Part shown: positions 8,064 through 46,160 of the stretch, in pieces | How the letters are laid out: each line of letters begins with the position of its first letter | Numbering within the stretch: position 1 is the first letter of the stretch | Assembly (NCBI RefSeq): GCF_029227915.1 | Contig: NC_079882.1 | Coordinates: forward strand, 27,890,001-27,954,000 | Origin: Hydractinia symbiolongicarpus | Taxonomy: Eukaryota > Cnidaria > Hydrozoa > Anthoathecata > Hydractiniidae | Direction of reading: 5' to 3' | Length of the DNA stretch: 64,000 nucleotides | Notes under the pieces: generated by a model | What the model was told of the DNA's origin: nothing | Database searches by the model: none | What the model saw: only the letters and a program-made list of their open reading frames with translations | Made by a program: the position numbers and the translations under genes

Positions 8064-8267
8064 ATGCTAATATCATCATCGTGAAAATTCCAAGGTCTAA
8101 TAAAGTATTATTGTCGCCTTTCAGCGTTTTATAAATTTCGTGGATCTGATCCACAGTGACAGATTATTTCTTCTTTTTCGGATGGTGGCAGATTCGTTTA
8201 GCTGCATTCAAAATATATCCGCACAATATCGCAGGATCTGCGTAACTGGAAATATTGTGAAAATATC

Positions 8268-9185: not shown

Positions 9186-9189
9186 CGTT

Positions 9190-22054: not shown

Positions 22055-22753
22055 TTAGTTCTGCCTGAAAAATGGAAAGATTCGCCCAAGCGAACCAAAA
22101 ACCAGAACCTGAAATCTCCTTACTTTAACGAAAAATGGTTCCTTGGGCTTATTTTTGAGCTCTTCCTTGTATTCCAGAATCTTTTCCAGCGGCAAACCAA
22201 GCTCACTTGGTTTTACATACTTTAAATTGACGCCAAGCTTTTTTGACAATTCTGCTCGCATCTTCAACAATTCTTTGCCATGTTTGTAGTTCAATTTTTT
22301 AATCAAATCATCCACACGCTCAATCATGTCGCGAAATTCTTGTATTGTGTCCTGAGCCAAGAATTTTAACTCTTTATGAAGCTGTTCTTTTAACTCTAAA
22401 GACAAAAAATTAACCAGCTTTTATTTCAAAATATTTTAGAAACATGGAATATCCTGACAGTTTGTGATCTCAAAAAGTATTACCTAGAGTTGTGCAAATT
22501 TTTCTTCTTCGATTTCTTATTCGTCTTCTTCTAAATACTTCATAAATGAGACCAAAGACAATAAACGCCAGGAAAAGTACCGATAAAATTTTTGTAATGT
22601 ATTGATACATTTTTGCTCGCCAGCTGATAATATCGATTATTGGTGTGTTACCGGTAGGCTTTAATGTCTTGACTACACTGTATTTCTTAAAGAGAGAGTA
22701 TAAATTACACCATATTGAATGTAGAATTGCTGTTGAAAAAAACCCAAGGAGTA
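22055..22753 (-). CDS. Channel exons: M4 and cytoplasmic coiled-coil tail
   Basis: Exon 22753-22484 encodes a hydrophobic stretch (LLGFFSTAILHSIWCNLYSL), a linker, then M4 (ILSVLFLAFIVFGLIYEVF) followed by a very basic RRRRIRNRRRK stop-transfer. Exon 22395-22055 encodes LKEQLHKELKFLAQDTIQEF and more heptad-like Lys/Glu/Leu sequence, a probable cytoplasmic coiled coil. These two exons join in phase 1. The join from 22808 to 22753 is one base out of phase; an assembly error, a mutation or an unseen donor could explain it. Confidence 0.65.
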
Positions 22754-25700
22754 CTACATAAAAAAATCATTTTGTTATTCAAATGATAAGACTGAAGAAG
22801 ATGATACCTTAAACAGTTCTTCAATAGCTGCGTGGGAAATATAGGCGTTATCTGTTGCAAATTTTCTTCCACACACTTTTAGTTTTTCCATCTCACCAAA
22901 TGCAGCCACACCAAAATCAGTTGGTACATTGAAAGCTTTTTTAACAGACAAGCCATAGGCAGAGATATTATGCTTAAGTGTTTCAGCGACATACCTATCC
23001 ACCAAGGCGTACTTTACAGATTGCTGATGCAAGGGTGACAACACTTCTTCATAAGATCGGTACAGTTTATCTATAACGGTACTGACGTTTCTTACAGGTA
23101 GCATGTATGCTGAGTTCAGTATGCATATTCTTAACATCGTAAAAGTATTTCTGGAACGATTTAGAGGCCAAAACGCATTTTTTTTGCATAGAAATTCGTA
23201 GAAGTACTCAATTCCCTTTTAATTTATAAAATTTACTTTTTTAACAGTCAGTATTTTTCGCATTAAGAGTTAACAGTACAAAGGTGGTTTTAAGTAAAAA
23301 AACTAGTTATTGTTACATATACTGACTGATAACTAATTTTAAAATTTTCAGGTTGTTCAATGTCAAATGCGAATATTTAGTCAAAATTTTTTCTCTTCGT
23401 GTTTTCAACAGTTGACAGGAAATTTACGATTTCTGCTCCAAACAATCTATGTTACTGCAAATTATCTTTTGAAACTTTACAGTTCTAGGTTACTTCAAAA
23501 TTAAAATAGGAAATAAAACAATCAATCGACAACTATATTAATTTGAATGCCATGTCAGTTATGAAGTAGCTAAGATACATTTGATTATACTAACTCTAGC
23601 TATATGTAAGTATATTGTATGTTATACAGCATTTAAACTTATTTTTAGAAGCAGGGGGTGTTTTTCTACGCAACCAACAAATGTCTTACGAACTATGAAA
23701 CTTAATCTGAGTCAATTTCTAGATAACCTTGAAGCAAGAAATTAATTTTCGCGACATGTGAAGCAGTGATCTTGGATTTAACAACTTTTATTGTCATTAA
23801 ACTTTGTGTTACCATAGAAACAAGGGGCATGGTTGTAAGCTATATCGCGTTTATGTACTAGCTTTGTTATATATTATAAAAAAATAAACCAACGTTTGTC
23901 GAAGTCTTTAGCATTTTTCTTCCCATAGGCATATTCTGATGTTCCATACAATGCCAATATCTAAGAGGTAAAAAAATCGATGTTCTGATAGAAAGCGCTT
24001 GTTTGAACACACCATAGAAATGAAATATTCTGAAAAAATATATCATTAGTTGCATTTATTATCAACATTTTCTTTACCTTATCTTCAGGCAAGTTTTGGG
24101 AGAAAGAAAAGATTACTGATACTGACAAAACGGATGAAAGACTACCAGCCACAATTCCAGTTAGCACCAAACCAAGTAGTGTCCAAATAACAATGTACAT
24201 GCGTCCTCTTTTAGTCTGCGGTACCTTATCACCATATCTATCAGAAAAATGTACGGTTGATGTAGAGTTTACATTTGAGGAAAGTACCCTTTTTTGTAAA
24301 TTTGATGGTAGTCACGATTATATTAGAAAAAAGACCTACCCAACCGTGGTACTTGTCATTACAGCTAAATATAATCCTTCAAATAATCCGCGAATAGATA
24401 TTCCGCGTCCTTTGTGTTCGACTTTTGTTGGCTCCTAATAAAAAAAAATATTTTCTAATCTCTTTCCAATTCTTTTGCAAATGATAAAACAATATGTTAC
24501 AGATTAAGTTAAATTAGAAGTTAAAGTCGAAAAATATCTATTTAAAAAATATAAAATTATGCCAGAGTACGAACTTACACAAATCCAAAATAGAACGCCA
24601 AACAAGGCATTCAACAGAAAGAACAGCCCACACAACGGCAATGTTTCTAGAAGGCCACGAAATAGCTTTAATTCCACTTTAGTAGCAGCTTCTACTGCAT
24701 CATCCGGAACTTCAAGCAGTACAAAACCAGGCGTAGTGACTATCGCTATATGCGAGTAACCGTATGTGTGTTTTCCAGTGTCCATTCTTGGCATTTGCAA
24801 TCCAGTGCCATTTACAGTAAAATTCTTGATATCACTGAAGGATTCCAAATCAACGGAGTTGTAAGAGATGTAAACACTTTGATTGAATGAAGTGCAATTG
24901 TAAGCACATGTCAACAGCATTTGTTCAGTTAAGTCTATTAAAATACCTTCTGGACGCAAATTGTGTCCATTTGGATAATCGACGTAAGGTGGGTATACCA
25001 TGTAATTAAGAATCAACTTTGCTTGTGGAACGCGACAGGTGTCTACAAAGTAACAGTTACTAGAGGTTTCTAAACAGTCACGCATTATACCAATAAGTTT
25101 GACAGAATCCTCTTCTTTCTCATCAGGCATTTTACAGCTTTACAACCCGGTATATGTAAAATTGTTTGACCAAGGTAATATGTTATATGAAAGAAAAAAA
25201 CAACTAATGTAAAACCTAAGATTTATATTATTTTTCTTCTTTTTCTTATTTTCTTTGCAAAAGAAGTAAAAACCTTTGTGGAAACTTTTACTCTATTAAG
25301 CATAACCTTAAATCAAAATGTCATTTTAATGGCCATTTGTCATATAAAATACGATATAAGTGATAGACACAGACTACGGAATTTGATTACGAAATCGCTA
25401 TTACGCTAAGAATTGCACAAGTCTATAAACTAGCTCATTAATCGATTAAATTAACTCTGCTTTCCAGATACAGAAGTTTAAATTAAGAAATGCATGGAAT
25501 CAAATACGCAAATAATTTTGAACAAAAACTTACGCATTATTACATAATCACTTGTTATACCAACTCCAGCATTTGTTCTTGCAGCTATGCGAACTCTGTA
25601 CGAACTATATACATCCAAATCTGATAATACGTGTGATGTGGTATAGCCCACCTCTGTAAAATTATCGGTAATTGGTCCATTAACTCCTATTTCTCCTGTG

Positions 25701-28700
25701 GATAATTTTGAGAAGAAAATAGTGTAACCTGCTTTAAAACCCAGCCATTGATCATCTTCCAAGTGATTCCATTGTATTAAACTTGAATGTGGATAGTGAT
25801 AACTGGTTGCCGTTAAGTTCAGTGGGTACGCCTTTGGAACTAAAGTTGAAAATCATTTTGATCTTTAGAATTTGAGTAAAAGTGCGTAAATTTAATCTTA
25901 ATTTTAATGTGTATGTTATGGAGATGATTATGCATAATTCCTGAATTTGACAGACAATCCCCGTTTCAAATATCCCAAACAAAAGTGCGTGTGGCTTTAA
26001 CTAAGAATACCGTGCGATTTTTCATTTTGGCTAATAAAAACCATCGATAAAAAATAGTGATAAGTAATGACACTTCTAAAAAAAATGTATCAACAAGTGA
26101 AAAATTTTTCACATCTGTTATATTTTGACTTGTAACCTTGTGCATAGATATCTTCTACCATTATACTTGTTAATAAAAAAATTAACCTACTGGTGGCCTT
26201 GTGGTAGAGCGTCCGCCTCCAATGCGAAAGGTCTTGGGTTCAAATCCCGACGAGTCACGCCAGAGACTATAAAAGTGTGGATCGATCCTTTCTGCTTAAT
26301 GTTCAGCATGAGAATAGAATTAATATCTTAGGCGGTTGTCTAGTTGAGCAGTTGTTGTGCTCGCACGCTTTTCGTAGCTCAAACAGGAGCTTTAAATGTT
26401 CTAGGACCCCCTTCGCAGGACCCTCATTGATAACAATTTCTATAGGTACTGAGAGGCTATCCTGGGTAAATAATAGTAATAATAATCATTTCTCAATTTT
26501 GGTTTAAGGTTGCGACATGTCTACTATTGCCCCTTTTTTAATCGGATCTAATTCTTAGATCTTAATCTTAACTTCAACCTAAATCCCCCTTCGGCAAACC
26601 TATTCTTATTACCTTCTGTCAATTTGTTCCCACGTTAGGTCTTTGTCCCAGGAACTATCACATCTCTACACTCTACACGATCACATTCAATAAACATAAA
26701 GAAAGATAAAACTCTGTTCAGGATGGAAGAATATCAACTTACAAGTTTCCGATGTTGTGCAATTAATTTTAGTTGTTGGTTCACCTTCCCCTGCATTTGT
26801 GAAAGCTGTTATCCATACAGTGTATGTTGTACTTGGTTTCAAGAAGAACAACTCCATATTTCGTTTATATGGTTCGTCAATTTCAGTCACTACCTTGTTC
26901 CGAAGTTGGTAATAAATCTTATATATCGTTCGAATACCTTCTAGAAAAGCCGGAGGAGAGTGTTTCCATTGCAGTAGAAGTGAACTGTGACTCACTGCTT
27001 TGCACGTAAAATTGTATGCAGACATTGATGGTGCTATAAAGATAAGGTTTGTGTGTATGTTAATAATGTCAGGCTTGGTTAGAGCATGGCGGTAGAAATA
27101 AAAAGCAGGAGATTCAAATCTTTTGTTTCTGTTGAAATGATCTGTGATGCAATCATTTGTAAATTAATCAATTTCGTCTTTTTAAATTCTGGCACGACTC
27201 CGTTTAAGCAAACTTCATTCGTCAAGAAAACAATCGATGTGTTAATGAGTTATACATTACATAATTAATTAGACAAACAATTAAACAAATTTCCAATTTA
27301 AAATGGCTGATATGCCTGTTGTGTGTCAACAAAAAAATACTGGAAATTGGTTTAACGAAAAGATTAATAACTTTTGGATCTGCTGATGAAATTACATCAT
27401 TTAAAAAGAAAAAGGACTATTAACTCTTCTATTTTTTGCACCAGTGACTCGATCTTTATCATGCTAAATTTTAGTACAAATTTGAGCATGTTTTGCTTTA
27501 TACAGAAGGTTAAAAAACTGGTTAAAAAAACTGATTTCTTAAATATCAAAGATAAATAAAAGTTGTTATGACAACTGAATCCTTCTCTGAGATATAAAAC
27601 AACACGACAGCTCCAAAAATACTCGTGTTTTTTTCCTAAAAAGCATGTTTTTTGCACAAGGTAACAAACGGCCCCTGGAGGATTACGCAATAATACTTTT
27701 TTCTAAACATCCAGTGAAATGCACCAAAGGGATACCGAATCAAAAGAAAATTTTTAATAAAATTTAAATGCGCAGTAAGATGAGCTCCTTCTCTATTTCT
27801 ACCTCCATGGTTAGAGTTAAAACATTAGTAAAGGCTTACTTCCTTGTGGTGTAACAATTTGTATAGGGAAGCTAAATAACCCAGCAAATTTAGTGTTAAC
27901 AGAAACACTGATATTATACACCGTGTCTCCTCTTAAACCAGTTATGTTGAAACTTGTACTATTAGCTCCATGGACCGTTATGTTGTGCCTGCAATATATA
28001 AAGGTTTTTAATCAAAAATTTGATCTTTTTTGACGATGCAATGAATATAATTATGTTAATAAAAAAAAAGTAAATGTAGGAGCCAATCTACTTACATTGA
28101 AAAATCCAATCCATCGCAATACTGGTCTTCACAACAAACCAAACAGGACGTATCTCTCCGCCTTCTAGATGGCGTTGAACCCAATCCAATTGTTAAATCC
28201 TCTGCTTCGTATATTGCTTGCAATCTGATGGTATATGTTCTTATAATACCTGGTACGTTCTCTGCTAATGGCAAATCCCAGAATACCTCAATTTTATTGG
28301 ATTTGTGTGGAATGGCGCGGATGTTAGGTGGTGGCATGACAGCAACTAAAACAATATAAAATACTTTTGACATGATTCAATTGTTGTTTTTAAAAACAAG
28401 GCATGAACAGTGTGTATAAATTGTATAAATTTACTAAACATTTCACCTACCTTCCTCTTCTGTTGTTACTACGATTTGTGTAAAATCGGATACTCCTTCA
28501 CTGTTGAAACAAGCAATTGAGATTGTGTATTGAGTGAAATAAGCAAGATCAGTTGCTTTGTAACTAAACTGTTTTCCTGTAAAACTAAACAAAAAGCAAT
28601 ACAGAATCATGTGAGTATATGATTATACTGTCACTAATTAAGCAAAAATACATCAGTCATTTTAATGCGTTGCGTTGCTAAAAAATTACACGCGTTAATT

Positions 28701-31700
28701 TAAACGAAGAATTATAAAACATGACGGTCTAGCAGAACATTTCTGTGACTGTACTAAGCATGAGGCAGATGTAACTGATTCTTCCATGTGTAAATTCCTC
28801 ACAACAGTCGCTAAAAACGTCCAAAGACAAAATTAAATTGTGAATTCAAATGTCAATAACCGTACATTTTAAAGGGAAATTTAATCCAAAAATTATGTTT
28901 TGATTTTTGATAAAACATGAGTTAAACCTTAGGTCAATGTTCTAAAAAGGTATTTAAAAATGCAAGATTACTTTACTTTTCCTCTAATCTATCTTTGAAG
29001 ATTGTTTTGGGTACTTATTTTATTTCTATTGAGTTAAAAAGATATTATATAAGGGATTCAATTCTTTTTTTATCTGTTGCGTGGTCCTTTTTCTCTCCCT
29101 CTCTCCCTGTAACGCTTTTTTTTTAGTTTAATTTACACTTTTAACATGACCCAATCATTTTATTTTTTTGTGTGTGTTTTCCTATGCATCCAAATTGTTT
29201 TTTGTTTTTTTTTTCAACTATTGTTTTTATATATCAATCTAAATATATTGATTTAACAGTCCCATAAATGAATGTGTCAATGTAACTAATCACTCTCCAA
29301 ATGACCTTCAATTGCAGCTAGTGCGATGTCTGTATCAAGAGTCAGTGTGACATCATATTTTTTGGCTTTCTGCCTCGAACACAAAGCAAGCTGGATTGCA
29401 GGAAAACAAAGTTAAGTCGTGTTCTAATCCAGCGTTTGATGATACTGCTGATTTGCTTTCTCTTTTCTGCCAGAAGATCAGCTGTACTTGACAGACTGCT
29501 ACACTTGCTACTCATATTTCAAAAGCATGACAAAGCGAGAAGCGTGAAGGTATCATGGTCGACTTGGTTTATTCTCCTGTTGTAGCATCTTTTTTCTCAT
29601 TCTTGTTCTCTTTGTGTACTACTGAGATACTCTGGGGTAAGTGAAATTTTTCTAATGGGTTGAAAACCTTTGTATCACAAAACGCTGCCGCTTTGTCTAG
29701 AAACGCTTTGCTGATATGTCGCCGCGTTGATCGTTGGAGACGGTATTAGTTGAATCGTTTAACGTTTCTACAGAAACCTTTAATTGAAATGTAAGTATGA
29801 ACATCATCTAAAGTTTTTGAATTAAAGTTTCTGAATTAATGTTGCGGTCTCGTTGTGTCTTTAAATAATGAAACTACCCTTCGCATGAGATAGTGACTGT
29901 TGAAGGTTGTTGCTATGCCGACAAGGACAAAAAACTGGTAACTCTTAAATCGAAATGTTGCATCGAATTTAAAAGCTACCATTGGCTGCTGCAATAAGTT
30001 CTAACGACCGTGCTGATATTGTTAGGATACCAAACTTTTTGACACAGTGATACTCTTGTCTTCCCATGACACCGTTAAAAACTATTTTACGTTGAGGAAA
30101 ACACTTCGATCAGTTTTCTAAATTAAAGAGCGGTGGTCAAGTTGCACAAAAAAGTGTCTATTTTTATGTGGTGCATCAAGTGAACCACGTCGCAGTATTG
30201 CTGATCGCTTCGATGTTACCGAGACAACAATGCTCGGAATTTTTCATCAAGACTCAAAGGCTATCATGCATTGTTTGGTCCCAATTAATATTTTTTGGTC
30301 TTGTGGAGACTCAATTAATGAAGTAGCTAATGCTTTTTTGAAACACATGGGGAGGTGTAATCAGAGCGATAAATAATACTACACACATATAAATATCAGG
30401 CTAATCGCTTTGAAAGAAAAATTATGTTAACAGAAAAGGGTTCACGTTTGGCCGATAACCGTAAACATTTTGAAGTTCCTTGTAGTTCCTGAAGGCAACT
30501 TTTTTTCCAACTTTACTGTCATGTCGACTGTATTCCTGTAAATTCTTGCGAAATTTTTATAGTTTAAATTTAAGAATTTTCTTTTGAGTTCGTGTGTTAT
30601 TATCTGCCATACTTCCTTTGCTTTATACTTTAAATTTCTAAATTTCATACTTAAATTTTGTTTTCACTTTTGTTTTTCTTTCATTTTTTTCTCTCCCATT
30701 TAATATACATGTCACTTACAATTATTTTTTTTTGGTGGCGACAGCGACTGACGTATGACGCTTGCATCTATCGTAGGTAGTTCTGCTTCACCATTTCCCC
30801 TTTATATATTCTGTCAAGATAAATCATATTCGCCGTAATCTAGGTCTCTATTGACACAATGAGAGTGAAATGACATCGCTTTCACTGTTGATCAAAATCT
30901 TGTTTAAATTTGAAACTATTCTGTTTGTTTATGTTTTCCACATAATTAAGTTTCGTCTCCTGAGGTTTTATAGCGCGCCAAAGAAATAGGTTTTGGACAA
31001 AAAAAGCTTTATTATTATATATATTTAATTATTTATTCAAGGTAGCCGCTTCAGTTCCCATTGATATTGCTATCAACAAAGGTACTGCAAAGGTGGTTCT
31101 AGTGCATTTAAAGCTCTCATTAGAACTACAAAAGTTGTGCAAGCACAGCAATCGCTCTACACACATCAATCCTTCTCATGCTAAATGCTAAGCAGAAAGG
31201 ATAGATTCATACTTTTATAGTCTCTGACATGACTCGACTGGGGTTTGAACTCAAGACTTCCCGCACTGGAAGCAAATACTCTAATCCAGATTCGATTCTA
31301 ATTACCAAAAAAATAGTAAATGGAGCACTTAAAGCATTCAGACTTAATGTTGTGTTTGAATGAAATAGCCCCCAATTGTGTGTGATAAAATGTTGCCAAT
31401 TGGTTTGTCTAGTTAGTTAGACTGCTGCACAAAACTTTGCGAGTATGGTATTGTGTTTGAAGATGTCTAGTGTTGTCTCAATCTACGATACCAAAAACAT
31501 CATCGAACAGCCCGTTTTTAACTATTTCCTTGTCCGTACGTACGCCAGATGTGTATTCTGAACGTGAACTCGATAGCACCGTCAAACGTAATCAACAAAA
31601 ATTTTGATATGTTGAGGTAATCAACCGAGCTTGTTTCGAAATAGTTAAAAATATTAAGCATTAAGTAAACACACAGAGAGGTAACGCATTGTGATGATAA

Positions 31701-34700
31701 AGGATTTTTTTGGAAAATTTTAACAAGTAAGAGCGAGTATAGAGACCGTTTACAAGTTAGTTAATTAATAATTTATGAGAAAAAAATATATTTTCACTTA
31801 AGGGCAATTTCGAATAAAAAGCCCTTCCAGGCTTAAAGATTTAGGATTCGTAGCTTGCGTTCGTCCACTTATTTTACAACATTTTTACAACGTCAAATGA
31901 TACTGAACAAAAAGTTACATGATGGATTGCTAGAGAAAGATGGAAAATAAATACATCTCCTGGAGAACATCTTCCTCTAAAAAGCTGCTTGTTACTTCGG
32001 CTTAGCTTGTGAGTGGAAATAAAGAAGCTATCTGGATATCACTCATGTGACGATTTTACTTAGAAAAAGCTTATCAGATCAGAACATTACCTGACAGAAA
32101 TGCCCGTAGTTTTCTCGCTGAAAACGCCATCATGAAAACAAACTTCATATTTACGTCAGTATATTCTGCTTTTATGACAATGGGGTAACACATGAGGAGA
32201 TTAAGGGAAGTAGCAATACAAACTAACGTCCCGTATAAATGAAAGAGCTTTTTACCGTAAATGTAACGTTATTTAATACTTTTATTACTTTTAAATAATT
32301 TTGTGTGAACTATAATGTGTCAAAAATTGAGATATATTTTGGGTACAACCCCCGGGATTATTCTTCAACGCAAAGCAAACTGGCCTGATCCTGATTGGTG
32401 GTCCTTTCCGTGACAAAAAATACTCGAACCTGATTGGTTGCATTATACTTCATTACAAGACGCTGCCCCGACAACGGAAACGGCATCGATGGCGCTTTGA
32501 TCAAATTGCCGGACGAAGAAAAAAAGAAAAAGGAGAAAAATCGGCCGGTTTCAATAAAAATTCGGATACGATCCGAAATCTTAATTAAGGACACGAACAG
32601 GGAGAGAGAGGATTGCATATGCCATAAGCGTAGCTAGTTTGGAATTTATGTCCCCCTATCCTACCTCTACCCCAAGATTTAAGGGCTAAAAAATCATAGG
32701 TATAATAGAGTGCCGCTCCAATGCCATTCAGTTTGGTTTTATAAATAAATAAAAGTATATCTTACGTAAAATTTATAGGATTTAAAACTGGGCATGATGT
32801 TTCGAAGAAATAATAAATATAACAGCTAAATATTATTATATTTGTTTCTGAATCTGTACACAACACATTCCGCCATAAAAAAATGACAATCCTTCAATGC
32901 AAAACAGAAGCTGGTTTACAAATTAAGCAAAACATTTAGGAACAAAGACTTTTTCATGATTTTATGGACTAAGTTGAATTAAGTATCAAGATATAATGTT
33001 TAAGTTAACTCCCCTTTAATTAAGAATGTTGTGTATCTTATCTTGTCAATATATTGAAAATGTCAATAAGTATATTCTCGTCTTGTTTCTGATCGCTATG
33101 ATAATATTGTTCGTTTAAACTTTTGCGCAAAGCCATATTTTAGATTCCTTCGGGCTAATTTACTTTGTTATGCTGACTGGCGAGAAAGTAAATTTTTCAT
33201 TTCTCTGTGTTATTATATCAAGACATATTATGTAAGATATATTATGACTGTCAGATAAAAACGTTGTGCTTTATTTTCGATTTGTCTTCAAATATCGATG
33301 CAGGAAATTTACAATTGGTGAATTCACGTGGATATTTTTATGAGCTAATACAAAAAGCCGTATCTTGTGTGGTCGAAAACGTTGCGCGCAACTTAGTTCA
33401 GTACCCTCCAAGATTAATTCAGTAGTGTCAAGGATGCACAAATAAGCTACGCGTGAAATTACCATATCATTTAACAGCTTTACTAGTCGTAAATCAAATA
33501 AAACGCATATTAAAATTAGGTATCTCAAAAGTATAATGCAGTATTATAAAATATGGGCAATTGCATGGAATTCCAATTACACTTACTTAGCTCGCATAAT
33601 ATCCTTGGTAGTTTTTTCTTGCGGTTCTTTTAATGATTGAATGACCAATTTAAAATCCCCAATGACTCCGGCCCATGCCTCTTCTGAAATATCCTCCCAA
33701 GATAGATATATAGAAGTTGAACTAGTGTTGTATCCACTAAGATTAGCTGGTGGAAGCAATGGTACTACGAATAAAAAAAAGTAAGTAAGAACTATTCAAA
33801 AGTATGTTGCAAGGAATATAAAGCACAAGGTGATCTAAGGTTAGCTTTTCTTATTTTAAACTGATGTATGAAACCATAAAATATTTAGAGAATTGTTACA
33901 ATACTTTAAGGCACGTACTGCCTGCTCCTGTCCGAACAGTTACAGGAGAACTGGCTGGACCCAGTCCTATCTTTGTATAAGCTGCAACTGTGACATTATA
34001 AAGAGTGTATGTGTCCAGTCCACCAAATATAGCAGTCAATTCCGAGTTAGCAGAAATATTTTGTCTTTCCATTTCAACGGATTCCATTGACATACAAATT
34101 ACCAGATATTGCGTAATAACACCTTTGCGTTCTTCACTAGCAACTTCGGACCAGTTAACTTTGATACTGCGCGAATCGTTAAAGTCGCCACTAAGAGCTT
34201 GTGGTGGACCGATGGGTACTATAGAAAATATGAAAACAAAGTATATTATTCTTTATTTTTGGAATTTTTGTTTATCTCTCAACACATATCGCCATCACTT
34301 TTTCAGAATTCTTAAAATTTTCCCTGCTATTGGAACCCTTCGAAGGTGGACTGAGGATCAAAATGTCAGTAAAATTAGCAAAAAATAGCATAGCATTCGC
34401 ACAGAAATCGTATCATTCACATTTAAAAGAATTAATAGAAACACAAACAAATCTCTTTTTTAAAAATATTTTTAACACTTAACTCTTAGTGTGTAAAAGT
34501 TTATTTTTGGTAAGTTGATTTCCATATTTCGATCGAAATTTTTACTTATAAGTTATAGTAATGAAATGAATGGGTGCTCTCAAGGAATTGTTTGTGGAGT
34601 ATTTGGAATTGTGATACTTTAGCTATACTTTAGCTTACCAATTAAAAGTAGTGTTGTAGTTAAGCAAATTTAACAAATTAATCAAATTTAAGACCGCGTG

Positions 34701-37700
34701 GGGGTGTAGGGATGGTTCACAGTTTAGGTTGACTCTGATAACGACTGAAAATATCCATTTTGTAGTGTCCAGACTGTCTGAAAATTTTTTTCTCGCATAA
34801 TTTTTAATATGGGAAAAATCGTGACATAAAGAGCGATAAAAATTGTTAGTCTCCAATTTGGAGAATTAGAATCATTAGTTAATGCTCAACATGTTATATC
34901 AATCAAAGCTAAGTTTGAGATCAAGTCATTCTCTTTGTGACTTTTTGCGTTGTTGAAACTAAATAGAAGCCCTGGTTATTAGTTCTTTGATAAGCCGGGG
35001 TCTACTTTATTTCATTTCGTTATATCTTAGTATGCTATTTGTTTTTTATTTATAATTGAGAAAGAACAGCTATGGTTAAGATTTTTTTTGAAAAATAACT
35101 GTTGTTATTCAAAACAAAACAAAAAAGAAATTAAGAAGCCTAAAATTTAAATAGCTACGCCTTTTTAATTATGAACCCCAGTCCACTTTGTGATCCGTTC
35201 CATTGTTGAATGCAACAAAGTTCTAGCGATGACGGCGTGTTTGGTGGAAGATCTAATGTAATGGTGGCCATTTTTAAGGAGGTTTGCAGGTCGTTTTTGA
35301 ATCTTTTTGTTTTCTTAAAAAAATCTTTTTTGTGTGTTTTTTATATGTTTGCGTGTTAAGATAAAAATACTGTCACGAATTCTAGCCATGTAAAAATCTT
35401 AAGCAAACCAATTTTAAGATTTTGACTACAAACGTAGATTTTGCTCTAGCTGGCTAGATAACTCTCCTAACTTATTGCTATTCTTTTGAAGGCTTTTATG
35501 TTTGGTTTGTCTAGCTACAGTAGCTGTTTATTTGCATTTGGCTAAAAAGTGAAAGTAGCCAAATGCAGTTTGGCTACATAAAAAATCTTGATAACTCTTA
35601 TGGTAAATGCAGTAAGGTCGCTACACCTTTTATTCTACAAAACATATTTATTGAGTGATAGATATAGCTGATCGGGGTAAAAACGGGCTCTTTCCTGTGT
35701 TTTATTTAAACCGAAGTTGCAATAAAGTTTTATTGGAAAAAGCTATTATGCCTATACGGATAGACAACATGGTTTACCTGTACCGAGCGCCTAACCTGGT
35801 GTCACAATTATTTCTTGAACTTTCATGGGGACTTTTCCTTCAAAATAAACAATGTTGCATGATTGTATTTGCTTTAACAGGGTAAAAAGAGGTTGTAAAC
35901 TTAGCAATAATTTTTAAATTTTGCATAACGTTTCAACAAAAAAAATTTTTTTGATTATTTTTGCTGCACAGGGTAACAGCGGGATGTTTTCTTTGAGTTT
36001 ATTTAAATTGATACATATAGGATATTTTTTGATCAAGGGTATTACGGTTATACACACATGTAACATGATATACCTGTACTAAGCGCTCAAACGAAGCAAC
36101 ATTTATTTTTGAACTTTCACCGAAAACATTTTCCCAAAAATAAAAACGTTTGGCAGCCTGGTTTTTCGATGACAGGTGAAAAACCGGAACCAGTGTTTAT
36201 TTTAGTTTAAGTTGCCAGAAAGTTATTTTTTGAAAAATATATATTACACCTGAAACACCGTAATGTTGTGTGCGCTCTACTCGATTTACGACATGCTGCA
36301 TAGCTGTACTAAAGCGCTTTACCTGAATGTGTGGCACAGTTTACGGTTCTTAATAATCGCTCTACTGCGTTTTCAACGCTGGTTAACAAATTTACTTGTG
36401 GCTTAACCGGGAGATTTATTGCCGAATCCTTCGCTTTTTCCTTAATAATATGTTTGCGCGCGAGAAAAACGTCGTGGATTTATTCACGGGCTACCATCTC
36501 TTCAATAATAGCCGTATTTTGTCTATCCGAAGGGAAACGTCGGGTTTGTGGGCAAACGAAATAGCGTTAATTTAAAGACGGCCAACCCCTTGGAATATTC
36601 CACAGACTAACGACTAGTCTACAATAAAGTTGATCACTCTTAATAAATTGCTGACACAGCCAAACTCTTTATTGAATAAAATAGAGTGTGAATGTGTGCG
36701 ACTTCAGTCCTACTATCCCAATCCCCCGTCCCCTAAAAGACTACCTGTGGCACTGTACTTGTTTTGTTGAAGAACTATAATGTCGGTCAGAAAAGTATGT
36801 GTGTTTGGAAATAGAGATACTTAATAAAGATACTTACTTAAATTTCCAAAGAGGTTATACTAAAGGAAACAAGCAGTTCTTATTCAAAAAACTCTTACCA
36901 TCTTCTCCAGTTTTCACAACAATTGGATCACTATGTGGACCGATACCGACAACAGTTGCTGCGCCCACAGCAATCTCATAATCAGTGTAGCTTTTTAAAT
37001 TATCAATATCAACTTTAAAGATACTGCTGTTGACGGACATCTCAGTATAATTGTTTTCCCCAATTAATTTGTAATAAATATAGTATTTGAATGGGTAACC
37101 ACGCCAGTTATCGACTTCCGTAATCTTTTTCCAACTTACTCTGACGGAATATGTACCAGTATCAGTGGCAGTTACATTTTTTGTGTATTTTCGGGGTACT
37201 AGAAAAAAAATAATTACATTTTTTCTATAAAAGCTATAAAATGAGATACTTAATAGAGATACTTAATAGAGATACTTACTTAAATTTCCAAAGACATTAT
37301 ACTAAAGGAAACAAGTAGTTCTTATTCAATAAACTCTTACCATCTTCTCCAGTTTTCACAACAATTGAATCACTATGTGGACCGATACCGACAACAGTTG
37401 CTGCGGCCACAGAAATCTCATAATCAGTGTAGCTTTTTAAATTATCAATATCAACTTTAAAGATACTGCTGTTGACGGACATCTCGGTATAATTGTTTTC
37501 CCCAATTAATTTGTAATAAACATAGTATTTGAATGGGTAACCACGCCAGTTATCGACTTCCGTAATCTCTTTCCAACTTACTCTGACGGAATATGTACCA
37601 GTATCAGTGGCAGTTACATTTTTTGTGTATTTTCGGGGTACTAGAGAAAAATAATTACATTTTTTCTATAAAAACTATAAAATGAGGCTGAACAAGAAAG

Positions 37701-40700
37701 CAATCTGTTATGGCTAATTTTCTTTCTTTTTTTTCTATTAAATAATTTTTTTTTGCATATACTTGTGAAAACTATTAATTCCAATGTAAGTTAAAAGACA
37801 GGTTTTACCGCTGTAGATAACACTCTTGAATTAAGGATGAACCCCGAAATTTTAGTTATAACTCTTACTATATTCCCCAGACTTTCCAGATATCTCATCG
37901 TAATCCGTGCAATAATATGTTCCATTTTTAGCTCCCAATTGAAATGTGTAGTCAGTGAAATAATTTAGATTGCAGATTTCATGCTCAGTCACCACTCCAG
38001 TAGTAACATTTCTATAATCTTTATTACTATCATTTGAGTTATAGTAGTGTATCTCATAGCCTTGAAGGTATTTAATAACCATGGTGTTGGGAATGTGCGT
38101 CCATTTTACATTGATGCATGTTGAGTTAGTTGCATTTGCAGACAAGAGTGTCGGTTTACTGGAAGGAACTAAACGTACAAACAATATTTATGTAGAAAAA
38201 ATTCCTGATCAGTTATTTGTGTTATGAACTATTTTTATCCTTATTGTTAATATTCCAAATATTTTTACAGGATATCCACTTAAGTGCTGTAAAAACTATT
38301 GTCCATATGGGTCCTGTGTTCTAAATGCTAAACATGCCGCACTGTGAACCGAACGGGCCTTGTATTTACAAAGAGAACTCCAACCACAAGGCAACGCGCC
38401 GCACGAAACTTGTAAACTTGTTAAGAGAATTTTGTTCCTCGGATATGTTTTTTTGCTTTTGTCATCACTGGTGTGAAAGACGTATCTGTATTCTTGGGTG
38501 GTTTGGGCGGTTTTCTTTAAAAGCTGTTAGGTAAGTGAGAACGGATTAACTTCGTGTGTCAGATTAATATTTAAAAGCTTTATTTAACTAAAAACGGGTA
38601 AAATTATGGAAATTTGGAATGCCATGTTTTTTTTTCATTTTTACTTCAGGCAGGACTTAAGCTATAATTTCGAACGAAAAAGTATAACATATATTTTTTT
38701 TCATTTATTTAAACGGATGAAAAGCACCTGCCATTTTAACATCAGTAAAAAAGAAGAGAAAACGAACAAACTGCGTAAAACTTGACTTACGACTTAGAAG
38801 CTTATCACACATTGTTAAGCATTGTTGATTCATTTTACAATAGCTCTTTTCATAAAACATTGAAATATAAATTAAGATTATCGGCATTTTTTTTATGTTT
38901 AAAAAATACCAGTTGTCACGAGAAAAAAATGAAATGAAAAAGTTTTTCATTCCTCACCGCGAAAAAAAATAAAGTGATAGACTAAGAATTTCTCGATGAA
39001 TTTTATCGCGATATGTGTCCGTTTAGAGTTACCGCAAATCGATGGACACCAAGGTTTAGGCAGCTAAAATATCTGCATAGGTTTAAAGAACGAAAGAAAA
39101 TATACGGCATAATAAATGAGGTATGTGCAATGAGTAGTTTATCATTAGCACGAAAAGTATTTTTTGAAGAATAAAACGGTCTTTGAAATATACGTAATTC
39201 AAGAGAAGTCGTTCAAAAATTCTACAGTATATCGAAATACAACGCATGTTAAGTGGAGGAACGTTTACTCTCTTAATTAAACACTTCTTTGATAATTTAG
39301 ATAAATTAAGAATTAACAATTACCGAACCGAATTAGATGTATTACTTTGTTCGCCGGTTTAACTTTTGAGTTGGATGATTTTTTAAAAGCTACAAAATTA
39401 GTTTAGCTTCGGGGAATTTTTATCACTATTCTTAGTTATTAAAAAAATGAATTTTTGGTCCATTTAGTAAAAATTTAAATTTAGGAATTTCCCGCCAAAT
39501 ATGAGATGTTTTTGTAATAATTTGCACTCCGAATATTAAGAACTGCTTTCTGTATTAAATATTGCATTCTGCAAAGAACATACTGCAAATCACGTTCTAG
39601 ATATTTTTCGTGCAAATTATGTATACCTTACTCCTTTTAGCCAATCACTTTCAAAAAGATTTTTCTGTTAAAGATAAACAGCTTTATCTCGCCTGCTATT
39701 AACTTTTCGGTCGCTTTATTAAGCGTAAGTTTAATAAAACAGCTCCAGGAACATACTCTTAAAATCGACTTTATAAATTAAGAAATCCAGTGACTTATTT
39801 GGTACATAAAAGTAGCTCTTTAAGCCAGGCGGAAAGATTTACCGTTACAGAAATAAAAACAAATCCAATAAAAATCTCCATGTTCTTTTAATCAATGCCC
39901 ACAGTTGTTAGAAGAAATGTATGAAGAGGGAGAAAAGAATGCTATTATTCGTGACCATATAATTTGGTTTAAAGACATCTTACCATAGCTGCAATTGTAT
40001 ACCACTTCAGCATATTTATAAATGCCTTCGCATGGATCACCAAAATCATCATTCGATGCTTTTATACTACAACTCTGCTTGTTATTGCAATTATCTAATT
40101 TTTTCAATATTCGTAATGATGTACAATGCTGATCTTTGCCACGTCCAGGGCAAACATTTTTACTTCTTCTACCATAAAAGGCATCAATTATCTTTATTAC
40201 TCCACCTGGTGAGCAATTTATGGTCGTGCTGTGTTTTTCACAAATGACCTCTAAAACGTAACAACATCACAATATGGTCAATTAGCGTGTGAAGAAGAAA
40301 AAATTGCGATAAAAAAAGGATTTTGTTTTGATTACCGTGTTTCGTCCAATTAACGCTAGGACTTCTATTTGCGCTGCCCTATAATAAGCACCCTCCCCGT
40401 TCAAGAAAAACGGTTTTAAAAGCGCTGCTCACTAATCCCTGACACCTTATAATCAACGAAGTACCTGGAAATGCTACAAAAATAGTGATAAGAAGAACAA
40501 AAAGATGGTTTTACAAAACGCAATATGTTCTTTAGCTTTTAGATATTTTTTCAATTTTCAAAATTTTTTCAAGAAAATAGTAACTTCACAATTTCCTTAA
40601 ACTTATGCTTTTATGTAAGTTCAAAGAAAGTAAAAAGTTCTTTTCGTTTCTTTAGTTTATTATCCAAGGTTTCAGCGATATTGACACTTTATGGTGTATT

Positions 40701-41452
40701 ATTATGTCGTGTCATAATCTTAAGAGGAGAAAGAGAGAACAAATCATAACAAATTCGTTGGGTTTTTTTGTTTTTTTTATTAGCACCGACCTAGAGGTGC
40801 CCTCAATTAGTGTCGCACGATTTGTAACAATGTTTTAAATTAGCGCTGGGGGCGCTAAAAACGACATTAATACAAGCAGAATTGGGTGCAGAACTTTTTT
40901 AACCTGTGTACTAATAAAAGTATATGGTGATTCTCTATTTGATGATCTTCTAACCTCGCAAGCGACATAGAAAAATAAAATTTTGCTCTATGTTTCCTGT
41001 CAAAATAAATCAATAAATTATCGTGATTTTTTTGAGTAGCGACAACTTTTTAATATTGCTGCTTAGGTAACAAAAAAGCGGGAGGGGGGGGGGGGGGGAG
41101 GGAGGAGGGGCTAATTAATAGGAAAGTGCAACAGCTTAGTACGTTCTTATGAGTACATATCCTTCTAATGTAACTTCCACTGTTTTTTATTGATTTGCAT
41201 TGTTTGACAGTGTTGAAAACTTTTGTTAGCAATCAGATTAACACAAGATTTAAGCCTGCTTAATAAATAAGAAAAACAATTTTTTAAGGGTGTAGGTTGT
41301 CTGTCTTACCAAGTTGCAAAGATCAGTGCTGCTGAAGTAATACTAATCGGAATCACAACAAGATAATGGTTCTGATAAATCTTACCTGTACAATTGCATT
41401 CAACAGCCGCACACATGCAGGTCAAAAGAAGAAGAAACAGGGTAAACTTCAT
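22055..41452 (-). CDS. Gene B: SUEL lectin + 8 FN3 + glutamate-receptor-like K+ channel
   Basis: Proposed exons: 41452-41386 (signal peptide), 40250-39984 (lectin), 38168-37869, 37640-37341, 37198-36899, 34218-33919 (FN3-1 to FN3-4, each exactly 300 nt), 33764-33587 + 28584-28451 (FN3-5), 28345-28096 + 27988-27840 (FN3-6), 27033-26743 (FN3-7), 25839-25534 (FN3-8), 25069-24579 (S1, M1), 24434-24340 and 24237-24078 (pore, M3), 23960-23894, 23109-22808 (S2), 22753-22484 (M4), 22395-22055 (tail). Phases match at every junction up to 22808. The next join, at 22808/22753, is off by one. Protein about 1.5 kaa: ectodomain, then an iGluR-like core with filter TTVGYGD. The likely role is a surface-anchored, ligand-gated K+-selective channel. 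Least certain: FN3-8 to S1 (acceptor at 25070) and donor 23894. If the FN3-8 join is wrong, the channel is a separate gene starting near 25130. Confidence 0.65.
22808..23109 (-). CDS. Channel exon: main part of S2
   Basis: YMLPVRNVSTVIDKLYRSYE, SVKYALVDRYVAETLKHNIS, FNVPTDFGVAAFGEMEKLKV, NAYISHAAIEELFK. The order A-D-(Y) followed by F-G-V-A resembles the second lobe of periplasmic-binding-protein/iGluR ligand domains. It ends AAG|GTATCA. The start is chosen at acceptor CTCAG (23110-23111). Confidence 0.7.
23894..23960 (-). CDS. Channel exon: start of S2
   Basis: After acceptor CTCTTAG the frame reads ILALYGTSEYAYGKKNAKDF DK, like the G-[TS] start of S2 after M3 in iGluRs. The proposed donor C|GTTGGT is weak but gives a phase match to the next exon. 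Without it the frame ends shortly in a TAA, which would make a short isoform lacking most of S2 and M4. Confidence 0.6.
24078..24434 (-). CDS. Channel exons: K+-selective pore loop and M3
   Basis: Exon 24434-24340 reads RGLFEGLYLAVMTSTTVG and ends GG|GTAGGT. Exon 24237-24078 continues YGDKVPQTKRGRMYIVIW TLLG, LVLTGIVAGSLSSVLSVS, ending NLPEDK. The joined filter is TTVGYGD, the K+-channel signature, placed after M1 and before M3 as in the inverted pore of ionotropic glutamate receptors. Known precedents for a K+ filter in this family are cyanobacterial GluR0 and the bdelloid rotifer AvGluR1. The intron (24238-24339) splits the filter between Gly and Tyr. Confidence 0.88.
24579..25130 (-). CDS. 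Channel exon: S1 ligand-binding half and first TM (M1)
   Basis: Open frame with S1-like features: VPQAKLILNYMVYPPYVDYP, RPEGILIDLTEQMLLTCAYN, YGYSHIAIVTTPGFVLLEVP. This parallels the start of iGluR S1 (T..E.PYV...G...DL...). A long hydrophobic M1 follows (LLETLPLCGLFFLLNALFGV LFWIC, in two parts). It ends TGT|GTAAGT in phase 0. The start is unsettled. Acceptor TGTTTAG at 25070-25076 joins FN3-8 in phase. Alternatively Met at 25130 opens a separate gene, or a small exon is missing. No canonical S1 Arg-x-x motif for the amino-acid carboxylate stands out, so the ligand is unknown. Confidence 0.75.
25534..25839 (-). CDS. Gene B FN3 domain 8
   Basis: FPKAYPLNLTATSYHYPHSS, LIQWNHL, FKAGYTIFFS, LSDLDVYSSYRVRIAARTNA, GVGITSDYVIM. 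The exon ends ATGC|GTAAGT (phase 1), which joins in frame to the ligand-binding exon at 25069 (C|AA). Confidence 0.85.
26191..26485 (+). mobile_element. tRNA-derived SINE, copy 1
   Basis: The tRNA-like head has a D-arm (TTGTGGTAGAGC, A box), an anticodon-like loop CTCCAAT and a B box (GGTTCAAATCC). An unrelated body follows: GAGACTATAAAAGTGTG, CCTTTCTGCTTAATG, AGCATGAGAA and so on, ending in GTAATAATAATC. It aligns through its length with 31287-31010 on the other strand. It lies in the intron between FN3-8 and FN3-7, antisense to gene B. The anticodon stem has a mismatch, so it is not a functional tRNA. Confidence 0.8.
26743..27033 (-). CDS. Gene B FN3 domain 7
   Basis: TPSMSAYNFTCKAVSHSSLL, LQWKHSPPAFLEGIRTIYKI, LKPSTTYTVWITAFTNAGEG, EPTTKINCTTSE. 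It is a standard FN3 fold in a single phase 1-1 exon. Confidence 0.87.
27840..28345 (-). CDS. Gene B FN3 domain 6 (two exons) with RRRR site
   Basis: Exon 28345-28096 reads VAVMPPPNIRAIPHKSNKIE, VFWDLPL, VPGIIRTYTIRLQ, then a loop STPSRRRRDTS and a Cys pair (CLVCCEDQYC). Exon 27988-27840 supplies the rest (TVHGANSTSFNITGLRGDTV, YNISVSVNTKFAG). The domain is about 133 residues long against about 100 usual, the excess being the basic/Cys loop. RRRR|D fits a furin-type cleavage site. Confidence 0.8.
28451..28584 (-). CDS. Gene B FN3 domain 5, second half
   Basis: FTGKQFSYKATDLAYFTQYT, ISIACFNSEGVSDFTQIVVT, ending TEEEG. Using acceptor GTTTAG at 28585-28586, the AA left over from the previous exon completes an Asn codon and the domain reads through without a gap. 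Confidence 0.8.
28590..30160. other. Part of the FN3-5 intron of gene B
   Basis: AT-rich intronic sequence, possibly including more of the Harbinger-like element (29300-30100 is less AT-rich), but no domain can be named. No RNA gene is seen. Confidence 0.4.
30164..30376 (+). pseudogene. PIF/Harbinger-like transposase fragment
   Basis: An open segment ASSEPRRSIADRFDVTETTM, LGIFHQDSKAIMHCL, SINEVANAFLKHMG resembles the helix-turn-helix region of Harbinger transposases (S.RSIADRFGVS.ST....V..V..AI.....I.WP...E....F....G.P...GAID). No catalytic DDE region is seen and flanking sequence has stops. It sits in the 5-kb FN3-5 intron of gene B. Confidence 0.45.
31010..31287 (-). mobile_element. tRNA-derived SINE, copy 2
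   Basis: On the minus strand: TTCCAGTGCGGGAAGTCTTG, AGTTCAAACCCC (B box), then GAGACTATAAAAGTATG, CCTTTCTGCTTAGC, GCATGAGAAG, GCTTTAAATG, GAACCAC, and a tail TATATAATAATAAAG. It has the same head and body as copy 1 but is clearly diverged and lacks the first part of the tRNA head. It lies in the intron that splits FN3-5. Confidence 0.8.
31290..33580. other. Remainder of the FN3-5 intron; no supported gene
   Basis: No exon, domain or partnered repeat recognised. Short frames at 32358-32637 overlap on both strands and look like chance. Confidence 0.4.
33587..33764 (-). CDS. Gene B FN3 domain 5, first half
   Basis: IPLLPPANLSGYNTSSTSIY, LSWEDISEEAWAGVIGDFKL, ending KDIMRA in phase 2 (AA|GTAAGT). 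The second half of this domain sits 5 kb downstream at 28451-28584; the intron between them holds a Harbinger-like scrap and a SINE. Confidence 0.82.
33919..34218 (-). CDS. Gene B FN3 domain 4
   Basis: 300-nt phase 1-1 exon: VPIGPPQALSGDFNDSRSIK, VNWSEV, LDTYTLYNVTVAAYTKIGLG, PASSPVTVRTGAG. It is a textbook FN3 fold with WSEV and the Tyr-corner region. It splices at A|GTACGT to FN3-5. Confidence 0.87.
34225..36820. other. Intron between FN3-4 and FN3-3 of gene B, with degenerate tandem repeat
   Basis: About 2.7 kb without exons. The right half (about 35650-36400) holds three diverged copies of one unit marked by ACATGGTTTACCTGTACCGA, ACATGATATACCTGTACTAA and ACATGCTGCATAGCTGTACT, each followed by GCGC, at about 35768, 36064 and 36291. 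Confidence 0.5.
36829..37685 (-). repeat. 442-bp tandem duplication carrying an FN3 exon
   Basis: 36829-37245 and 37271-37685 are near-identical, including intron flanks on both sides (for example CTTACTTAAATTTCCAAAG and TAATTACATTTTTTCTATAA). Exon borders are offset by exactly 442 nt. Differences are few, among them the P/S and G/A changes in the C-terminal third of the domain. Confidence 0.9.
36899..38168 (-). CDS. Gene B FN3 domains 1-3 (three 300-nt exons)
   Basis: Exons 37869-38168, 37341-37640 and 36899-37198 each encode one FN3 domain (VPSSKPTLLSANATNSTCIN...; PRKYTKNVTATDTGTYSVRV...). The conserved Trp (VKW/VSW) and the LxxYTxYxxxVxAAT strand are visible. FN3-2 and FN3-3 are almost identical, the product of a recent 442-bp tandem duplication. 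All three exons are phase 1-1 and so can be duplicated without breaking the frame. Many N-x-S/T sequons point to an extracellular location. Confidence 0.88.
38180..39980. other. Intron between FN3-1 and the lectin exon of gene B
   Basis: 1.8 kb with no supported exon or repeat. The phase-1 donor at 39983 joins the phase-1 acceptor at 38169 directly. Confidence 0.5.
39984..40250 (-). CDS. Gene B exon 2: SUEL lectin domain
   Basis: One full SUEL-type lectin domain: EVICEKHSTTINC at the start, then VIKIIDAFYGRR, LKKLDNCNNKQSC and FGDPCEGIYKYAEVVYNC. It is about as long as the gene A lectin and clearly paralogous. It splices in phase 1 to FN3-1 (TAT G|TT CCT), giving a continuous YVPSSKP linker. 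Confidence 0.88.
41386..41452 (-). CDS. Gene B exon 1: signal peptide
   Basis: MKFTLFLLLLTCMCAAVECNC, a typical cleavable signal peptide ending in a phase-1 GT donor (ACAG|GTAAG). It parallels gene A exon 1 in length (67 nt), phase and sequence (MKF...CxxAVECNC). A TTTTTTAG acceptor-like string directly precedes the ATG. Confidence 0.85.
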
Positions 41453-44395: not shown

Positions 44396-44425
44396 AGATT
44401 CAAGTTCAAGTAAAGTTAAGCGAAA

Positions 44426-46160
44426 ATGAGTAGTACACGCGTTTTTGAAGTTTTAAATAGAATCCAGGTTGCACTTGGTAGGAATTCATTTCCTGATATG
44501 AACTTTAAACCAAAGCAAATAAAAGGAAGAGACGTTTTAGCTGTTCTCCCAACTGGATATGGGAAATCGATCATTTTTCAGTTGTTGCCAGATTTTCTTC
44601 CAAATGAAGAGAAAGGAAGTATGATAATTGTTATCACTTCCTTAAATTCGATTATAGATGACCAAATGAAATTTTTAAAAAAAGTTGGAATGGAATGTTT
44701 TTACTTGAAAAGTCCATTTGACATTGAAGAAGCAAGAACAAATTTGTTCTCTGATTCCTATCCTGACAACGAAGTTGATAGTACTGCACTACCAGATCTT
44801 TCAATAAAAAAAATTTAAAATCTTGTTTTGTCACCCTGAAGCAATTCTAAGTGATGTGGGGAGAAACTTACTAAAGTCAAACACACTCCAGAAAGAAGTA
44901 AAAGCCATTGTTGTAGATGAAGCACATTGTATAGACACTTGGTAAGTTTTTTCTAATATGAAACTGTTGTTGAAATCTGTAGCTATGCTGAAACTCTTTC
45001 ATTTTTTATTTAGCTGATACTTCATATGTAGCTATTTAAAAATTCGGGTTCAACTCCCGAGAAGGGTTATTATATCTTCATAAAAAAAATAATGTAACTA
45101 TATATATACATATATATATATATACTATGTCTATAAAAATTCTAGCAAATATAACCAACGTAGATATATAATAAATAGAAACTGTGCCAGTTATATAGTT
45201 TATATTGTTAAATTTCAGGGATGATAGCTTCAGAAAAGAATTTCTTAATCTTGGAGCCATTAGATCCTTTTTTCTGGACATTCCTGTGCTTGCCCTAACA
45301 GCAACTTCTACAGTTAAAACAACAAGCAGAATAAAAAGTGTTCTTGGAATGAGGGATTGTGTTTTTTTGACTATCAATCCAAACCGCTCAAATGTATTCC
45401 TGGTTAAAAAAAAAGATACCACAATTCATATGGAATCGAAGGTATCAAAAAGATTTTGTTACCGATTGGAGAAGATTTAAAAAAACAAGCGAAAGCATAT
45501 CCACAGACTATCATATACTGTAAATTAAAGTATTGTGGCTATGGGTACAAAATTTTTGAAAGTATAATCGGCTCTTTGCAATATGTAGGAGGCGAATGTA
45601 AACCATCCAAAAGTTTGTTTGTGCAATTTCATGCAACCCAAAATAAGCACATGAAGCATGAAATTATTTCAGAAATTTCAAAAATCGACAGTAACATCAG
45701 AGTCATTTTTGCAACTTCTGCCCTTGGTATGGCTGAATATTGCAAAAATGACAGTAGCTGCTTGAGATCTTTGTTGTTGCAGCATTTCAAACATAAAGCA
45801 CCACCACAACAAAAATGTTGTATTATATGTCATCCAGAAACCGACTATGGTAAACATGATCACGTCTTGGTCAGAGAAAAAGTACAACGTAAAATTAGTG
45901 AAGCTGATTTGCAAAAATTGTCACAAGAATTTAATAACCTGCTTGCAGATTTGGATGCAAATTTAACAGATGATCCGCCAAGAGAGTTTTTTGGTCTTAG
46001 TATGGATACTAAAGAAATTGCGGAGAAGTTTTCAATGATATTGGATAATGTCACTGAAATTGAAAATGAAGATAGCCTTTTGGGATTTGGTCTTTGGGAC
46101 GAAGATGTATCGAAAAAAGCATATGAGCTGATACAAATTTACACTACAGAATTACCTTGA
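44426..46160 (+). pseudogene. RecQ-like SF2 DNA helicase carried by the TIR element, broken
   Basis: Motifs in order: FKPKQIKGRDVLAVLPTGYG KS (Q-like motif and Walker A, about residues 27-48), IIVITSLNSIIDDQM (motif Ia), KILFCHPEAILSDVGRNLLK (Ib-like), VDEAHCIDTW (DEAH box with the RecQ-type Cys), then after an intron (44942-45219) DDSFRKEFLNLG and VLALTATSTVKTTSRI (motif III). The C-terminal half reads YPQTIIYCKLK and RVIFATSALGM (motifs IV-V), then EYCKNDSSCLRSLLLQHF and CCIICHPE (RecQ zinc region). Lesions: a frameshift in an A run at about 44810, another at about 45415, and loss of motif VI (no Q-x-x-GRxGR) between ATSALGM and EYCKND. The protein cannot be an active helicase. Confidence 0.8.

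Follow-up and report, generated by a model that had tools for sequence, protein, structure and literature searches.

We analyzed a 64,000-nucleotide stretch of the genome of Hydractinia symbiolongicarpus (C8:27890001-27954000, hereafter the window, in whose numbering positions are given unless a contig is named) and find that it carries a gene in which a lectin and a row of adhesion domains precede an ion-channel core. The gene comprises 19 minus-strand exons with GT/AG sites that join into a single open frame (about 1,480 residues), from an ATG at 41452 to a stop at 22055, and encodes, in order, a signal peptide, a SUEL lectin, eight fibronectin type III (FN3) domains, an S1-M1-pore-M3-S2-M4 core resembling that of ionotropic glutamate receptors (iGluRs) with the filter sequence TTVGYGD, and a C-terminal helix. 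A sequence-only reading of the same DNA had proposed this frame and this order, and both were reproduced here. Because the splice sites were picked to hold phase and avoid stops, the exon model says little by itself, and we give no weight to its lack of stops; the independent test comes from the paralogues described below.

The start codon and signal peptide (MKFTLFLLLLTCMCAAVEC) lie in exon 1 (41386-41452), with a homologous exon in a tandem paralogue, A2, at 4366-4300, and exon 2 (39984-40250, phase 1-1) encodes the SUEL (D-galactoside/L-rhamnose-binding) lectin. The FN3 exons follow at 37869-38168 (FN3-1, phase 1-1), 37341-37640 (FN3-2, phase 1-1), 36899-37198 (FN3-3), 33919-34218 (FN3-4), 33587-33764 and 28451-28584 (FN3-5, the second half lying behind a 5-kb intron with acceptor GTTTAG before TTTTACAGG), 28096-28345 and 27840-27988 (FN3-6, with a furin-type site, RRRR-D, in its first half), 26743-27033 (FN3-7), and 25534-25839 (the membrane-proximal FN3-8, with a phase 1 donor, ATAATGC/GTAAGT). 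The lectin, FN3-1 to FN3-4, FN3-7, and FN3-8 thus occupy one exon each, and the phase-1 exon chain described earlier holds for most exons, the exceptions being FN3-5 and FN3-6, each of which is broken by an inner phase-2 intron. Pfam matches on the translated pieces are far past chance for fn3 (5e-72, eight stretches), SUEL_Lectin (PF02140; 1.2e-18, 67.6 bits against a cut-off of 31.4), and, in the core, Ion_trans_2 (1.4e-12, 47.7 bits against a cut-off of 22.5), and the YGR and DPC motifs of SUEL lectins are present in both the window gene and A2. FN3-3 is a near-copy of FN3-2, the two exons (36899-37640) differing at 6 of 300 nucleotides; in A2, one copy was found in their place.

The channel part shows three hydrophobic segments in the right order and is encoded by seven exons. 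The first (24579-25042) carries the S1 lobe and M1; the sequence-only reading had placed its acceptor at 25070 and its start at 25069, which is in frame, but 25042, also in frame, is more likely the start because its pyrimidine tract is better (fraction 0.65 versus 0.50) and because the resulting H-TCRVPQ matches E-TCHVPQ in paralogues. The pore helix and first filter half (..TSTTVG) come from 24340-24434 and the second half (YGD..) with M3 from 24078-24237, so that an intron interrupts the filter. The S2 lobe begins in 23894-23960, whose donor (AAAC/GTTGGT) is weak, yet the NCBI protein of A2 shows the corresponding junction (FDTHTPYQSYEE), and continues in 22808-23070, which includes a conserved acid (ALVDRYVAE); for this exon the earlier lower limit, 22808, was kept and the start corrected to 23070. 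M4 is encoded by 22484-22685, and the last exon (22055-22395) supplies a cytoplasmic helix with the motif LNYKHGKEL and the stop. A similar KH..E-like motif recurs in the C-terminal helix of several of the related chimeras described below.

A genome search with the first channel exon returned five further copies, all on C8, and a protein search of the 480.9-Mb, 76-contig assembly (84 of 118 candidates scored) placed six loci, namely the window gene, A2, A1, B, C, and D, far above the rest, the next best being 30% identical (1.1e-13). All six have FN3 domains ahead of the channel, with no difference in order or orientation. The intron between FN3-8 and the channel measures 491 or 464 nucleotides in the window gene and about 3.5 kb in A2, and 76, 115, 115, and 81 nucleotides in A1, B, C, and D, respectively. 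NCBI annotates locus C as one 2,027-residue protein (P0003) and locus D as one of 1,733 residues (P0005), both with FN3 domains and channel, and a 2,036-residue FN3-channel frame (P0004) lies on a 6,303-nucleotide contig with the source tag "lgn," which we take to denote the Logan assemblies made from public sequencing reads. Since gene D extends over 18.2 kb, this contig must be intron-free, and because P0004 is 87% identical to the D exon model over 1,277 columns, it is another allele, copy, or species relative to D, judging by sequence. Blast matches in A1 (last exon), B (two FN3 exons), and C (one FN3 exon), some of them partial, were not placed in the exon models.

Across the 15 pairs of paralogues, the ratio of nonsynonymous to synonymous substitution (Ka/Ks) lies between 0.10 and 0.25 over FN3-4 to FN3-8 and between 0.04 and 0.31 over the channel (0.25 and 0.31, respectively, between the window gene and A2), with Ks near or above 1 in many distant pairs; these values show that constraint acts on both the FN3 and the channel half. 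Pore exon 2 is identical between the window gene and A2 (31/31 residues), and all six paralogues carry an RxRR furin-type site within FN3-6. FN3-1 evolves faster: five of the 15 pairs, all involving A1, are saturated, and B versus C gives a Ka/Ks of 1.28 from very few changes. Blast of both SUEL domains against the fetched loci (E up to 0.05) found the lectin in the window gene and A2 only, and for loci C and D the NCBI proteins open with their own signal peptides and show no SUEL; the N-terminal block of P0003-P0005 was looked for in the window gene, with no match, and is matched in part at the remaining five loci. A2 itself enters the window on the minus strand with the signal-peptide exon mentioned above (4300-4366) and, by homology, a SUEL exon at 3468-3740, its FN3 and channel exons lying below the window (C8:27889188-27875725). 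Between these, matches to the N terminus of NCBI LOC130654183 cover 750-3073 on the minus strand (about 3073-2789, 1858-1604, 1245-1132, and 941-750, as blast spans rather than exon limits).

The filter of the window gene conforms to the TxVGYG pattern of K+ channels, as the sequence-only reading had noted, and among 17 aligned chimeras it reads TTVGYGD in 16 and TTLGYGD in one. The order S1-M1-P-M3-S2(-M4) is found in the alignments, in the hydrophobic segments, and in the helix order of a predicted structure, in which a two-lobed ligand core split by the pore resembles the core of GluR0; we therefore regard the core as iGluR-like in order and, with middling confidence, in fold. The adhesion ectodomain stands where iGluRs usually have their amino-terminal domain, and a Pfam scan (E up to 10) of its 947 residues gave no LIVBP-like match, in line with the replacement proposed earlier.

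The gene is not the lone oddity it first seemed but belongs to a larger family of cnidarians in which the ectodomain takes many forms. Database searches with the P0006 core (about 8,000 candidates scored per homologue search) recovered the same kind of core behind adhesion heads in Clytia, Rhopilema (two), Actinia, Oculina (two), one EukProt set, and "lgn" contigs. Five have EGF-type heads (P0006 and P0008 to P0011, with TNF above cut-off in P0006 and C1q in P0009), and others are of the FN3 type, combined with laminin-G (P0012), TLDc, MAM, and discoidin (P0013), discoidin and TSP1 (P0014), or TSP1 (P0016). P0015, with FN3 ahead of its core and both discoidin and C-type lectins behind it, is perhaps two genes fused in annotation. 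PF28033 occurs in P0003-P0005 and in the proteins from Oculina (P0012), Actinia (P0013), and Rhopilema (P0014), and SUEL was not among the Pfam matches of the related chimeras examined. The passage from the last FN3 into S1, TC(H/R)VPQ..NYMVYPPY in Hydractinia, has a counterpart in Oculina, Rhopilema, and Actinia: P0012 and P0014 have TCRC..NWW..PPY, P0013 and P0016 show variants of it, and P0015 a weaker form. Basic runs like the RxRR site are also seen in P0013 and P0014. Of 12 chimeras scanned (P0003, P0004, P0006, and P0008-P0016), six pass the Lig_chan cut-off (P0006, P0008, P0009, P0010, P0011, and P0015). A Hydractinia exon with MTTVGYGD (L044, C4:17488970-17489251) is close in sequence to P0006, and Hydractinia may also hold an EGF-type chimera.

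The trees contain 42 rows. In them, 28 K+-filter cores, of which 23 come from named cnidarians, form one group (support 100/99), and this group falls on the bacterial side of the branch separating off 12 ordinary Hydractinia iGluR-like frames (100/100, or 100/99 without the pore loop). The 12 were picked for long frames among 40 loci, which cover 41 of 51 Lig_chan matches; L044 was left out as short, the row for L038 lacks S1, and that for A1 ends past M4. Groups within the tree comprise the six Hydractinia chimeras with P0004, the EGF type, and stand-alone frames; a single clade of all FN3-type chimeras received an approximately unbiased test p value of 0.178, with lgn_TSP and Oculina_FN3lec as long branches. 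Because the trees are in fact unrooted, they do not decide between a retained and a regained filter. The stand-alone frames are 11 single-frame GluR0-like genes of Hydractinia (L036, L038, L039, L041, L047, L051, L053, L054, L055, L057, and L060) on C4, C6, C7, C11, C12, and C13, with TVGYGD or TVGFGD filters; ten span 419-516 residues from the first Met and L038 spans 341. A first pattern for GYG or GFG found the filter at 10 of the 40 loci, and L039 (ATVGYGD) and L057 (STVGYGD) were added on reading. No publication on these stand-alone genes was found in the literature searched.

Animal iGluRs are known as non-selective cation channels. The available part of PMC12332018 names two cases with a K+ filter, bacterial GluR0 and the rotifer receptor AvGluR1. 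The former, cyanobacterial and K+-selective, is described there as having only two transmembrane domains, and therefore no M4; it has no large head, and unlike GluR0 the family of the window gene lacks the canonical ligand arginine. AvGluR1, from Adineta vaga, combines an animal iGluR architecture with a K+ filter and is set apart by its description only, the same part of PMC12332018 giving it a eukaryotic iGluR architecture and mentioning no lectin or FN3 head. With the animal iGluRs (AKDF, epsilon, NMDA, and lambda; PMC6307864, as far as available) the core shares the S1-M1-P-M3-S2-M4 order and the predicted fold, and the K+ filter, the lost ligand arginine, and the adhesion head are the chimeras' own features. 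The accessible portions of PMC12226733 and PMC6307864, which classify animal iGluRs, name no K+-filter, adhesion-headed group, and those of PMC12464821 report iGluR terms for a neuron cluster of type B in Hydractinia. The chimeras with this kind of core and adhesion ectodomains, LOC130654183 and LOC130654910 (Hydractinia), LOC135682248 and a "PTPRQ-like" protein (Rhopilema), LOC116307805 (Actinia), and LOC144629929 (Oculina), are uncharacterized, and we found no account of them as a family in the literature searched. Nor did the papers listed include one on iGluRs that combine a K+ filter with an adhesion head, in a literature that leaves out many subscription-only papers and the majority of preprints. 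LAR-type receptor tyrosine phosphatases, too, have an FN3-rich ectodomain, with a phosphatase where the window gene has a channel, a likeness of build only. The likeness extends to a furin-type site, at which LAR phosphatases are cut and remain as paired chains, according to the part of PMC8711739 available.

Taken as a whole, the data are best explained by a real single-chain receptor-channel, to which we give a probability of roughly 0.6. Several observations weigh against it. We saw no transcript of the window gene, neither homologue search turned up its protein within the length ranges covered, and the join from SUEL to FN3-1 across a 1.8-kb intron is drawn from order and phase and from its recurrence in A2. 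The core matches Ion_trans_2, but its Lig_chan score (PF00060) is 13.4 bits, and that of locus D 22.7, both below the cut-off of 30.8. By sequence, the window core matches K+ channels and related pores among the best 60 of 259 Protein Data Bank rows; its likeness to iGluRs did not emerge from that search and came from the wider family and the fold search. The structure model is middling (predicted local distance difference test 66, predicted template modeling score 0.41), whole-chain Foldseek alignments are loose (template modeling score by query 0.20-0.29, root-mean-square deviation 16-21), two bacterial rows are partly misplaced in the core alignment, and K+ conduction is read from sequence alone. 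Finally, the NCBI protein of A2 (P0001, 513 residues) is channel-only, starting inside S1 and equaling the A2 channel from the first Met onward. Together with an in-frame ATG at 25130 in the window gene and the stand-alone GluR0-like frames of Hydractinia, this last point speaks for two neighboring genes, one for an adhesion protein that is secreted or of FN3 type and one for a separate GluR0-like channel driven from a promoter near 25130-25200, an alternative the sequence-only reading had itself raised. We consider it very unlikely for the family because FN3 domains and channel share one order at six loci, junction introns are 76-115 nucleotides in four of the six paralogues, NCBI predicts single proteins, an intron-free contig holds one frame, and similar junctions recur in Oculina, Rhopilema, and Actinia; moreover, the residues past the ATG at 25130 (MPDEKEED..) are not signal-peptide-like, so that S1 would be left without one. 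The chimeric gene proposed earlier is supported on the same grounds.

Two further explanations were weighed. In iGluRs, an S1 arginine contacts the alpha-carboxyl of the ligand and an S2 acid contacts its amino group. The arginine, counting against a classical receptor, is found in none of the 17 chimeras, and the clamshell may therefore bind nothing classical; at the alignment position of this arginine, both bacterial references read R and 10 of the chimeras have a gap. The acid column reads D in 15 (including the window gene), E in one, and N in one. As the acid stays and the arginine is gone, the clamshell might bind a small ligand, perhaps an amine or another compound that is not an amino acid, with the ectodomain acting as a scaffold that places the channel at contacts, much as amino-terminal domains position synaptic iGluRs. 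The predicted GluR0-like two-lobed fold and the variable ectodomain modules around a kept core agree with this, but S1 is strongly divergent and of low model confidence, no ligand was predicted, and the 11 stand-alone relatives have D in only five and N in six, with R in the arginine column in three, which leaves the idea doubtful, if possible. Improbable, in our judgment, is that the pore is a structural relic of what is now an adhesion receptor, or a constitutive leak. Delta receptors do act mainly as adhesion scaffolds, and we know of no electrophysiology of the adhesion-headed K+-filter family; a filter invariant but for one TTLGYGD, a pore exon without a single residue change between the window gene and A2, and purifying selection on the core argue for conduction.

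Elsewhere in the window, upstream of the channel gene, 53298-57776 on the minus strand holds a protein tyrosine phosphatase exon (Y_phosphatase 4.4e-25 at 53298-53711) and a weak, sub-cut-off match at 56694-57776. RecQ-like helicase exons lie at 44420-46157 on the plus strand (DEAD 4.9e-7, RecQ zinc-binding 2.1e-5), and retroelement remains at 7556-10227 on the minus strand (reverse transcriptase 1e-12, and a weak, sub-cut-off tyrosine-recombinase match of 0.0045) are perhaps DIRS-like.

For the single-chain receptor-channel, we infer that the SUEL and FN3 ectodomain is probably cut in FN3-6 by a furin-type protease and held as two chains, and that it would stand on the iGluR-fold clamshell (S1/S2), followed by the M1-P-M3 pore with its K+ filter, M4, and the C-terminal helix. 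Four subunits would assemble into an inverted-K+-channel tetramer, as in GluR0. The trigger, of which we are least sure, would be a glycan or a matrix or cell-surface partner on the ectodomain or a small ligand on the clamshell, and opening would pass an outward K+ current that quiets the cell, so that the protein would sense contact or chemicals and respond with inhibition. Its most likely function seems to be that of an inhibitory K+ channel opened either through its head or by a ligand of a non-classical kind. More tentatively, cnidarian "adhesion iGluRs" might be an old, unrecorded K+-filter class of the GluR0 lineage, apart from ordinary animal iGluRs, with furin-cut heads repeatedly rebuilt from adhesion and lectin modules and with contact to glycan, matrix, or neighbor turned directly into inhibitory K+ current, the PF28033-type and FN3 build being older than the split of corals and anemones from jellyfish and hydroids. 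The family makes it testable whether animals that have a K+ filter retained it from an ancestor, and it offers material on the gating of a clamshell channel by a large ectodomain. In cnidarian proteins that join a K+ filter to an adhesion head, contact sensing and electrical silencing may share one polypeptide.

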